Origin: Daucus carota subsp. sativus
Lineage: Eukaryota; Streptophyta; Magnoliopsida; Apiales; Apiaceae
DNA length: 64,000 nt
Assembly: GCF_001625215.2 (NCBI RefSeq)
Contig: NC_030384.2
Location: forward strand, 37,234,390 to 37,298,389
Reading direction: 5' to 3'
A program made the position numbers and the translations under genes. The notes under the pieces were generated by a model, which saw only the letters and a list, made by a program, of their open reading frames with translations, had not been told where the DNA came from and ran no database searches. The stretch's first letter is position 1; each line of letters starts with the position of its first letter. Below, piece by piece: positions 1-3,480 of the stretch.

Positions 1-419
1 TATTAACAAAAAAAACAAAATTATATTTAAGTACTGTTTGGATATTTACATACTCTGAGGTTGGTGACTTTTTGTAGATGTCAGTAAGTAGTTTTCATTA
101 GTGACTCGGTGTGTAGTTATTTGTAATATGAATGAGTCGGTATCACAACTTTGTAGCAGTTTCCTTCTTTTGTCTATGTATTAAGCTCAGGCCTACTTGC
201 ACCTTTATACCAATGAGAGGAAAAAAGAAAGATTTCAAATATCAGTGACATGACATCTAACTGGAAGCACTTAACAATTAGATTCAAGTTGCAAATGCAC
301 TAATCACTATGTTATGGACTCTAAATGATCATAAAATGTAACATCCTCAGAAAATGGCTGTTTTCACTTTCCTTTTTGCATTGAAGATTTTTGTGGTTTG
401 GAATATTGGATACTTTGTT

Positions 420-677
420 TGTAGAATATAAAACTGATTTTTTTATTAATTCTTGTTCCTCTGAAAAAGAGATTACATCCATATTTAAAACAAACGTACT
501 TGACTCCTAACAATACTCTGCTACTTCTAATAATCTCCTAAAACAAGATAGACTCAATACCTCCTACAAACTCTCTAAAACTCCAACAATCATCCAACTA
601 CTTCAATCTAAAATTAATCCTCAAAATAAATAACTAAACAAATAATAATAATAACTAAATTTAAGATTATTCCAACA
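420..677 (-). repeat. 3' LTR of the TRIM (minus-strand sense)
   Basis: 258 bp; begins TGTAGAATAT and ends ATTCCAACA on the plus strand. It matches the copy at 1196-1453 throughout as far as I can align by eye. The adjoining purine-rich tract at about 678-690 marks it as the 3' LTR of a minus-strand element. Confidence 0.9.
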
Positions 678-716
678 ATCACTCCCATAATCTTAAATTT
701 ACTTAACAGAATTTAT

Positions 717-907
717 AAAGCACTTCTCTTCATTTTGTGATGCACTTCTCACCACCACCAATATGTTAATGCACTTCTCATTAACACCAATTTGTTGATG
801 CACTTCTCATCAACGCCAAATTTACTGGAGCACTTATCTCCAGGTTCACATAATCACCCATAATTCTAATGTTCTCTCCAGGTGCACATAATCACCCATA
901 ATTCTAA
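717..907 (-). repeat. array of hairpins with a constant loop, plus a 38 bp tandem duplication, inside the TRIM
   Basis: Five successive inverted repeats enclose the loop CACTTCT (last one CACTTAT). The stems are AAG/CTT (718-730, weak), GTGATG/CACCAC (737-755, one A-C mismatch that becomes G-U on the minus strand), GTTAATG/CATTAAC (765-785), GTTGATG/CATCAAC (794-814) and CTGGAG/CTCCAG (825-843). The stem sequence changes while pairing is kept. They are followed by a 38 bp-period direct duplication (838-869 and 876-907). The minus strand is the element's transcribed sense, on which the G-U pair would be tolerated. Confidence 0.75.
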
Positions 908-1181
908 AGGAGAGGTTCTCCCTCTACTCCGTCAAAAAAAAAAACGCAAGATCCATCTCGTTCTGCATGGCACTCTATCTCATTTTCTGCCTTCAGCACG
1001 CTTCTCCGGCATTGCCTCGTCTTTCTCGGCAGCCCCATACTACACATGCATCCCATACTACACATGTAGCTTTGCCACCATCCTTCCGCAACGCCAACCT
1101 GAAACTACCTCGTCGGACACTTATTCCGCGCCTCCACCACCGGCGGCGTCTTTACCACCGGCGGCGGAACAACAAAACCTC

Positions 1182-1193
1182 GCTCTGATGCCA
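1182..1193 (-). other. primer-binding site for initiator tRNA-Met
   Basis: The minus strand reads TGGCATCAGAGC; the usual plant tRNA-Met site is TGGTATCAGAGC, so 11 of 12 bases match. It is separated from the LTR by two bases, the normal spacing for reverse-transcription priming. Confidence 0.8.
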
Positions 1194-1195
1194 AG

Positions 1196-1453
1196 TGTAG
1201 AATATAAAACTGATTTTTTTATTAATTCTTGTTCCTCTGAAAAAGAGATTACATCCATATTTAAAACAAACGTACTTGACTCCTAACAATACTCTGCTAC
1301 TTCTAATAATCTCCTAAAACAAGATAGACTCAATACCTCCTACAAACTCTCTAAAACTCCAACAATCATCCAACTACTTCAATCTAAAATTAATCCTCAA
1401 AATAAATAACTAAACAAATAATAATAATAACTAAATTTAAGATTATTCCAACA
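1196..1453 (-). repeat. 5' LTR of the TRIM (minus-strand sense)
   Basis: 258 bp copy of 420-677. It is the 5' LTR because the primer-binding site (1182-1193) lies just inside it. Confidence 0.9.
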
Positions 1454-1975
1454 TTGTTAACTGTGATCAGGAATTCAGGATGTGAAATGCTTTATTACCT
1501 GGACTCGCTACATATCCAAGTGTTGGCCTCAGCAATTTTTTTAAAATTATACATGTTTTTGACCTAAAATAAGTGTCCGAGTGTCCATATTCATGTCCCA
1601 GTGTCGAGTGTCCGACACGGTATTGGAGTTGAGTGAAGAGTCGGGGTGACAAAGGTGATTTATGTTCTTTGTAGAATAAGATTTCAGTTGTGTTTCCCTT
1701 GTTCTGTGACAGAACAAATGTTATCCCAAATACACTAATACTGAATGTTGGCCTTAACTGAGCTGTTGTGGTAAATTTTATTTCGTTCTATATCTATGGC
1801 AAAATAAGAGAAAGATGAAATACACATTCTTTTAGATAATTTATTAGTTTACTGAGACCATGAATGTCTTTAATGGAAACTAAGAAGTCTAAAACCACCA
1901 ACTTTTTGGAACAGCCAGAGTACTAATTATGGTTCCTTTTCTTGTATTTGAATTGATTATATTCTTTTTTTGTAG

Positions 1976-2961
1976 GCTTGCTTTGAAGGTAACCCATTTA
2001 AGACAGTTCCAGGCCCTTTTAAGCTCTTCTACCGCTGCATGCGCTCAAAACCTGGGTACTTATACTCTTTCATTGCTTTCCGCAGGATTTGAACTTTAAT
2101 GGCTGATTTCTAATTATTTCTGCATCAGAGTTTATATCTGTTCAGCAATCTCGATTACTTGTTATTTTATCATAAAGACCTGCATACTGCTAAGCTAAAC
2201 TATAATGTTGTATCATGTGTTTCTATGTAAAATTTATGTTCTATTGGTTTGTTGCAATTAAATAATATAAAAAGATAATGTACTATCTAGGCTATTTTGT
2301 TACTATTGAAGCATAAATTGTCTTTATGATGTCATATTGTCATTCTAGTCCAGCAAATTACTGTTAATACATTTTGCCAAAAAAATTTAAAAAATAAATC
2401 ACCCTCAATATTTTTTCTCCGGTTTCACGTGCTCCATCCTCAGATTCTGTAAGCTTCACATATTTGTCATATTTGTCTTGCACTCCATGTCTCCACCGTC
2501 CCACCACCATCACTTTTAATCTCTTTCATCCGTTTTAACCCTTACATTCCTGCCCTGTCGTATTTCAATCAATTAAAATGTTTGATAAGTTAGGAGGGAG
2601 TTAGTATAAATGATAATATATCTGTGTACTTGATACTTTTTTCTAATCATATGACTGTGCAAAACCCTGTTAGTAGCCTATGCCCCAGAAGTCGTATAAT
2701 CTGCCAAACCAGCATTTTAATTTAGTGTTAGTTCTTAACAGGGTGGCATGATAAACTCATATCCACTCAACTTGTGAGTTTTACCTGTCTTTCTATTCAA
2801 CCTTTTGCAAATGGCTGTAGCAATTAGTCCTGAACATCGATCGTTAAGCATTTTATTATTACTGAAAAATGCATTGGATGTTTTAATGCAGGGAAGAGCC
2901 AACTGAGCCATTCTCTTATTTGCAATTAGACCCCCCAAAGCGGGAAGTAAAACTCGAGTAA
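1976..2961 (+). CDS. C-terminal two exons of an unrecognised plant gene (5' part lies left of the window)
   Basis: Two exons join cleanly: 1976-2055 (after a TTTTTTTGTAG acceptor, ending at GT) and 2892-2961 (after TGCAG, ending in TAA). They encode the last 49 residues of a protein, beginning ACFEGNPFKTVPGPFKLF, continuing YRCMRSKPGEEPTEPFSYL and ending KREVKLE. The phases match (two bases carried over, completing a Gly codon), and composition differs sharply from the AT-rich surroundings. No complete upstream exon is visible between 1 and 1975, so that stretch is read as intron and the rest of the gene as lying off the left edge. I do not recognise the family. The tail looks soluble, basic and proline-rich, without a membrane segment. 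An LTR element (420-1453) sits in the preceding intron on the opposite strand. Confidence 0.7.
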
Positions 2962-3480
2962 AGGCCATCTAGATATCCCTTGTACTGCTATGTTTTTTCA
3001 ATTTTAGTTCAAGTCCAATGTAACTTTTCCATGTTGACTGTCCTAATAAATTCTCAGCCTTGTGAATTTTATCACAAATTATTGATGTTGATGGTTTCTT
3101 ATTGATGTTAAACATCGGCACCATCCCGATGTCTCAGTCAAGTTTGTCGCTATTTTAAAATCGCAGCTGAACTATGAAAATTTTATTACTAAAATATAAT
3201 TTGCAATTATAGATGGTCTGTAATTGTTTGCAAAATATGGTTTAATTAGGAGTGTTGTCGAAGACCAAGTACATATATGTGAATGTTGTGAAGGATTAAT
3301 GTGAGTGTTATGGATGGCGTATTATATCTTGAATTTAGAATATAAAGTATATAAATGTCACAGGGAATTTAGTGTTGTAAACGGTTTGGTATATCTGACT
3401 TTGTGAATAGGGCTGATTTGAAGTGTTTTGGCCCTGAATACCGGTATATTCATCATTAATGTCTTAAATATCAAGATCTT

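Follow-up and report, generated by a model that had tools for sequence, protein, structure and literature searches.

An array of short hairpins that share one loop on changing stems was identified right before the polypurine tract (PPT) of a TRIM retrotransposon in Daucus carota, and corresponding arrays are carried by further gene-less TRIMs and by elements whose only gene encodes Gag. We propose, at a probability of roughly 0.45, that selection maintains the array as a multivalent recognition signal in the RNA of non-autonomous copia-type elements, where it most likely serves Gag packaging or assembly, a proposal drawn from sequence comparison. A selected structured RNA, as suggested by the initial annotation of the 64,000-nucleotide window (the whole stretch of DNA analysed here), is the best reading because several families possess the array and because its loops and stems are more conserved than their flanks. 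Dimerisation or priming through the loops found no support: the loop cannot pair with itself, and no exact complement of it occurs in any of the eight representative elements, on which grounds kissing-loop dimerisation and loop pairing within an element were rejected.

The window element and its hairpins

The element is an ordinary TRIM with short LTRs, TG..CA ends, a 5-bp target-site duplication, a primer binding site (PBS) and a PPT that adjoin the LTRs, and a length of about 1 kb without coding capacity (Table 1). Its LTRs, TTGTT duplications, PBS and PPT bear out the initial assignment to a TRIM with a minus sense strand, and its identical LTRs mark it as a recent insertion. The PBS is one base off TGGTATCAGAGC, which we take to be the initiator-Met tRNA type; TGGTATCAGAGC itself is the PBS of two elements described below, L040 and L069. 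That a TRIM codes for nothing, as had been stated, holds in the window, where the longest sense ORF (minus strand, 904-1065) has 53 aa and no Gag match was found in the element's locus, though close relatives encode Gag. This ORF lies directly upstream of the array, and its last residues, EPLL, are also those of the Gag frame in the Gag-only relatives. Because both frames end in this way, the window TRIM looks like a Gag-bearing element that has lost its gene, and the ORF, judged by eye, is likely a Gag remnant. Rfam covariance models gave a single match in positions 1-3000 of the window, far below the gathering score and outside the TRIM; a known RNA family, including the hammerhead ribozyme of retrozymes, was ruled out, as no match reached the threshold.

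Table 1. Features of the window element, with positions counted from the first letter of the window
Feature	Position	Strand	Remark
TRIM, non-autonomous LTR retrotransposon	420..1453	-	1034 bp; TG..CA ends, 258-bp direct repeats 776 bp apart
5' LTR in minus-strand sense	1196..1453	-	258 bp
3' LTR	420..677	-	258 bp, 100% identity to 5' LTR
Target-site duplication TTGTT	415..419	.	borders TRIM
Target-site duplication TTGTT	1454..1458	.	borders TRIM
Primer binding site (PBS) TGGCATCAGAGC	1182..1193	-	one base off TGGTATCAGAGC
Polypurine tract (PPT) GGGAGTGAT	678..686	-	adjoins 3' LTR
PPT-flanking inverted repeat	656..701	-	TAAATTTAAGATTAT (687-701) pairs with ATAATCTTAAATTTA (656-670, U3)
Hairpin A CTGGAG-ATAAGTG-CTCCAG	825..843	-	sequence, fold
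Hairpin B1 GTTGATG-AGAAGTG-CATCAAC	794..814	-	sequence, fold
Hairpin B2 GTTAATG-AGAAGTG-CATTAAC	765..785	-	compensated G-C -> A-T at pair 4
Hairpin C GTGGTG-AGAAGTG-CATCAC	737..755	-	one G-U pair
Hairpin D TGAAG-AGAAGTG-CTTTA	716..732	-	one G-U pair

The array lies on the minus strand at 716-843, between the TRIM interior and the PPT, with the hairpins in the sense order A, B1, B2, C, D. The five same-loop inverted repeats reported initially were confirmed there by sequence and fold, with the loop AGAAGTG in four hairpins and ATAAGTG in A, and the stems do change while the loop stays. Two details had to be amended. The initial annotation had counted a single imperfect pair, turning into G-U on the minus strand; there are two (737-755 and 716-732), both read A-C in plus-strand sense and become G-U only in minus-strand sense, so its strand point holds twice. 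The hairpin it gave as AAG/CTT is present, but reaches five pairs in the minus sense.

The five same-loop hairpins compare with an average of 0.69 and never more than 2 among 5000 mononucleotide shuffles, none of which reached five (a hairpin being defined as a stem of at least 5 pairs, G-U allowed, on the same 7-nt loop with one mismatch allowed). The folding energy of the region is less striking (z = -2.05 on the minus strand and -2.51 on the plus strand). When the whole 64-kb window was scanned for perfect 6-bp differing stems on an exactly shared loop, the other matches had only short A/T-only loops, namely five with two members each and TATA inside TATATA runs. Sense-upstream of hairpin A, the stretch 843-907 contains a repeat spaced 38 nt that holds GGTG-ATTATGTG-CACC. 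By eye, this motif is perfect at 881-896 and mismatched at one position at 843-858, and it may represent another hairpin of this type, though a weaker one; a PPT-like stretch, ATTATGGGTGATTATG, lies within this repeat zone. Near the PBS, at 1114-1128, there is a 4-bp hairpin, CGGA-ATAAGTG-TCCG, which is kept in several copies and whose loop is one base off AGAAGTG.

The array is separate from the PPT-flanking hairpin downstream of it, which is already known and ordinary. In the window, the PPT and the start of the LTR lie inside the loop of this linker/U3 inverted repeat, which measures 15-19 bp in eight measured array copies, 13 bp in seven of nine copies with the ANAYG loops described below (7 bp in the other two); it reaches 12 bp or more in 8 of the 11 gag-only ends that have a PPT. 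Its arms differ between families yet match (AAATTT..AAATTT, AAGTTT..AAACTT, AAGTTTAGATTA..TAATCTAAACTT), and the PPT of most array copies is GGGGGTGAT, with a run of G. Such a repeat is described for all but three of the Sireviruses and for almost half of the classic copia elements covered by PMC2829016 and is also discussed in PMC3601003; according to the sections of these papers drawn on here, the arrangement is the same, with the PPT 5' in the loop, the left arm bordering the PPT and the right arm in U3. Of the Sirevirus PPT signature, the window element possesses the inverted repeat and lacks the octamer AGGGGGAG followed by AT/TG, having GGGAGTGAT/TG instead. Sireviruses are further characterised by a large Gag and multiple linker PPTs; the Gag of the window element's relatives has 285 aa.

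Element families with and without the array

The 441-Mb genome (11 contigs) was searched with a hairpin-bearing and an array-free query. The former gave 45 matches at 40 places (40 scored of 329 candidates), some of which are duplicates (e.g., L011/L012, L024/L025 and L035/L037). All 40 loci have at least three hairpin-like units, mostly ordered A, B (one to three), C, D; exceptions are L008 and L010, without one of C and D, and L011, L012 and L032, without a scored A, and the A unit of L038 was classed as D in the 40-copy hairpin scan. For the array-free query, consisting of the 5' interior alone, the best 30 of 40 scored matches (147 candidates) were examined. The array is present in all 20 of these that have the window LTR type or a relative of it; 14 of the 20 were already among the hairpin-query copies, and four of the other six lie close together on one contig. 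In the ten elements among the best 30 matches that combine the same 5' interior with another LTR, the AGAAGTG array is absent. The core pattern GRTGAGAAGTGCATYA occurs at 411 sites genome-wide against none for the reversed control, and at least 61 of the 411, among the 100 matches listed, fall in one tandem array.

Arrays hold three to six short hairpins, mostly with one loop, at a fixed place right before the PPT; in some relatives AGAAAGUG, AGAUGUG, AAAAGUG or ACAAGUG replaces AGAAGUG. Among copies with 100% identical LTRs, one B unit is found in L007, L009, L028 and L033, two in L001 (the window element), L004 and L018, and three in L015, so the array length is free to vary. Equally abundant and recent copies with fewer or no hairpins would, according to the initial annotation, speak against a selected structure, and what equally recent copies have is this range of one to three B hairpins.

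Several loci have unusual arrangements. Two related copies, L031 and L034, contain an insert of ~550-570 bp between hairpins C and D, and L026 (C9 near 5.40 Mb) comprises two array elements back to back in opposite orientation. L094 (C2:1530300-1530850) holds two inverted array copies ~230 bp apart, with six hairpins on one strand. L093 (C2:15195153-15211858) is a tandem array with a period of ~807 bp, whose unit combines sites resembling a PBS and a PPT with five hairpins, of which two have new stems (GGGTG/CACCC, and CATGGC/GTCATG with the loop ACAAGTG); from its sequence we regard it as a TRIM turned satellite-like. Outside the genome, the one exact IMG/VR match of a two-hairpin pattern, on a G+C-rich contig, was judged to be due to chance.

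The elements fall into three groups that have in common the LTR (mostly 87-97% identical to the window LTR), the array and the PPT, and differ in the rest of the interior: window-like TRIMs; a second TRIM group (L016-L020, L022-L026); and single-gene elements, 1.6 kb when whole (L027-L030, L033, L035-L039). The gene of the third group encodes a copia-type Gag (PF14223, E = 2.5e-35, plus DUF4219) with two CCHC knuckles by inspection, the zinc-knuckle profile scoring just below the cut-off. Its 285-aa frame is intact in seven of ten copies, and L027, which measures 1.6 kb from LTR to LTR, has no second ORF of at least 200 aa. This Gag is under purifying selection: of the 21 pairwise comparisons between intact copies, 18 give a Ka/Ks of 0.10-0.33, the remaining three being two pairs with Ka/Ks 1.25 (few changes) and one identical pair.

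TR-GAG retrotransposons are Gag-only non-autonomous LTR elements. The L027 group likewise combines LTRs, a PBS and a PPT with an intact copia-type Gag as its only gene, pol being absent, and fits the TR-GAG idea, a statement that concerns this group and not the window element. It differs in its 3' linker, which is a hairpin array common with TRIMs; a search of the open-licence PMC literature for TR-GAG retrotransposons together with hairpins found nothing.

A Gag search of the genome gave 170 matches (136 scored of 6159 candidates), at least 14 of those listed covering at least 283 of the 285 residues without a stop. Among the twelve gag-only or gag-like 3' ends obtained in this way (L076-L087), which include near-duplicates, ten have the array; L087 has a decayed one and L083 has none. 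No array was found in L088 and L089 (50% and 38% Gag identity), nor in any of seven gag-pol 3' ends (L072-L075, L090-L092) from about four families with 40-58% Gag identity, among which L073, L090 and L091 end alike, as do L075 and L092. By eye, the gag-pol ends lead into another PPT and LTR type. The array is therefore not a general copia packaging signal, and an autonomous, Pol-supplying partner with the array was not found among these seven ends. One carrier with another LTR, L040, matches the window element only in the array with its upstream repeat, the PPT zone, the first LTR bases and the PBS zone.

Conservation, pairing and a second array

Conservation is several-fold higher in loops and stems than in their flanks. 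The mean fractions of non-majority letters in loop, stem and flank are 0.032, 0.058 and 0.184 for A (36 units), 0.037, 0.028 and 0.139 for B (74 units), 0.004, 0.009 and 0.189 for C (39 units), and 0.011, 0.029 and 0.210 for D (40 units), the flank values being somewhat inflated by length differences. One loop sits on at least five different stems, or six counting the ACAAGTG one. Compensated stems include GTTAATG/CATTAAC in five copies and GGAAG/TTTTA in L038, as well as TTTGATG/CATCAAA (several) and TACGAAG/CTTCGTA (one Gag-only relative) among the relatives, whose loops are unchanged or altered at a single base.

Covariation, which the initial annotation had proposed as a check, is strong between different hairpins; within one hairpin type, it is borderline for B and lacks significance for the other three (A, C and D). 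Between hairpins (54 distinct units), 82.8% of cells are paired against 68.8% after shuffling, and the covariation score is 0.460 against 0.218, neither value being reached in 500 shuffles; versions slid against the frame score at most 0.162. Two of the five between-hairpin measures did not rise above the shuffles (both-side changes, 231/500; further pair types, 485/500). According to RNAalifold, 4 of 47 pairs changed on both sides in 37 tails, with a covariation term of only -0.79; in some of these copies the first hairpin is misaligned (B against A), so the covariation there is between hairpins and not between copies. Alignment A1 omits L031, L032 and L034 (insertion or truncation). Within types, the observed covariation was reached by 537, 1000 and 361 of 1000 shuffles for A, C and D, respectively, and for B by 9 of 1000 including a misfiled C-position unit (L084) and by 105 of 2000 without it; L083, L087, L088, L089, L093 and L094 are omitted from this test.

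Stem changes that disrupt pairing as frequently as they preserve it had been named initially as evidence against a selected structure, and the outcome is mixed. Among changed stem cells of the 40 copies, those that keep pairing (17 G-U and 5 double changes) are about as numerous as those that break it (10 A-C and 13 other), the sums comprising A pairs 1-4, B 1-7, C 1-6 minus the fixed G-U and D 1-5, and counting cells, not events. The decay of dead copies would give such a balance, but it agrees with one half of what had been named initially as refuting. As a test of the strand, 17 G-U against 10 A-C cells in related copies show no clear G-U excess and are not decisive for the RNA strand.

In the ten elements that have the window 5' interior and another LTR (L055, L060, L069 and relatives), hairpins with ANAYG loops (ATACG, AGATG, AGACG and AAATG) precede the PPT on stems such as TGCC/GGCA, AGCC/GGCT and AACC/GGTT; the principle of one loop on many stems therefore recurs with another loop. 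Nine of them were tested, L056 being omitted as no PPT was found in it. ANAYGG sites number 5-14 per element against 1.2-1.7 in mononucleotide shuffles, and those with at least three pairs number 5-12 against a shuffle mean of at most 0.07. Over 31 distinct cores, the share of paired cells is 79.0%, compared with 69.8% when shuffled (0/1000) and at most 43.0% when slid, with the ANAYGG pattern fixing the first base of the 3' arm. Within this family, L069 differs from the window element in having the PPT and attachment site of the Sirevirus type, AGGGGGAG AT/TG, and L069 and L070 (C6 near 13.757 Mb) belong to a tandemly arrayed TRIM in which LTR and interior are repeated at ~990 bp.

Readings of the array

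The array region would form the 3' part of the genomic RNA in both the gene-less TRIMs and the Gag-only elements. There, several copies of one protein could bind the loops at once, and the likeliest binder would be the family's own Gag, the only protein found in an array carrier among the carriers checked. Acting multivalently in packaging or assembly, the array would then admit gene-less TRIM RNA into Gag particles. Hairpin repeats may be gained and lost as whole units, and template switching among co-packaged RNAs may have moved the cassette between families, which would explain its spread. Packaging of Ty3 RNA depends on UTRs or POL, which we count in favour of packaging, whereas the known packaging sequences of Ty1 are at the 5' end, which counts against packaging by a 3' array (both from the passages of PMC4974528 used here).

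Two known systems bear comparison. In the BARE1/BARE2 system of barley (PMC3735527), a copia element without its own Gag is packaged in its partner's particles and keeps packaging signals; in the portion of that paper drawn on, a same-loop hairpin array is not mentioned and the word 'loop' occurs 0 times. In mouse mammary tumour virus, Gag reads unpaired purines on a stem-loop (PMC8096270), a likeness in working only, because that signal, as characterised in the sections cited, is a single bifurcated stem-loop and not a tandem array before a PPT. A bolder version of the Gag reading, which we hold to be doubtful, would make interchangeable 3' same-loop cassettes family-specific Gag codes exchanged through template switching, with AGAAGUG used by the Gag-only elements and the TRIMs that parasitise them, and ANAYG by another set. 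If this were true, a gene-less element could change its partner by changing its loops.

The main rival, in our estimate an unlikely one, is an RNA export, localisation or stability element, in which a host protein would bind the repeated hairpins and move a short, largely untranslated RNA from the nucleus or to the places where particles assemble. Some retroviruses have 3' transport elements that offer a comparison. Such an element would have the same anatomy as a packaging signal, i.e., a 3' non-coding place, repeated identical loops and conservation, and would also explain why TRIM and Gag-only RNAs possess the array and the examined gag-pol elements do not. However, nothing in the sequence data points to a host protein, and a reader specific to the family would account for the different loop of the second family no less well than a host factor.

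We consider it improbable that the array is a neutral by-product, namely a palindromic tandem repeat grown by slippage, whose arms were matched by template-switch (quasipalindrome) correction in reverse transcription. This would agree with the variable number of B units (1-3), with pairing broken as often as kept in changed stem cells, with the weak covariation within types, and with tandem repeats known to be born in plant LTR elements (PMC7004042 and PMC3648361, in the parts consulted). Copying of arms, however, does not account for a conserved non-palindromic loop: conservation of the loop is similar to that of the stems and far above that of the flanks, the loop persists on at least five different stems, and the cassette is found in a family whose LTR is otherwise unalignable (L040).

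A role at the DNA level, as sites for a DNA-binding factor or as satellite-forming units with a dyad symmetry that reflects a dimeric protein, appears very unlikely. Sirevirus LTRs do bear repeated palindromes read as regulatory boxes (PMC2829016, in the part used), and one relative forms the tandem array with a period of ~807 bp, but a fixed asymmetric centre with changing dyad arms is the reverse of a dimer site, and both imperfect pairs of the window array are G-U on the transcript strand only. Scarcely credible, finally, is an aid to plus-strand priming by purine-rich loops acting as accessory PPTs: the loop does start with the all-purine AGAAG and Sireviruses average four PPTs in the linker (same source and part), but the loops are unlike the G-run PPT GGGGGTGAT of most copies and lie between conserved, pairing stems.

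The window element shares with TRIMs as described in PMC4717578 its short length, two short LTRs, PBS, PPT, 5-bp duplication and lack of genes, and the tandem arraying reported there is also seen in some of its relatives. The main text of that paper uses neither 'hairpin' nor 'secondary structure', and the TRIM description drawn on here does not include a shared same-loop array; a search of the open-licence PMC literature found no account of such arrays preceding a PPT. Of 289 subfamilies in the same survey, only 11 had a longer LTR element as a relative, with full proteins in four cases. How gene-less plant retrotransposons enter the particles of another element is largely an open question. 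The repeated conserved loop in TRIMs and in Gag-only elements with an intact Gag provides a concrete candidate RNA-protein pair, and the second family with another loop offers a built-in control of specificity.
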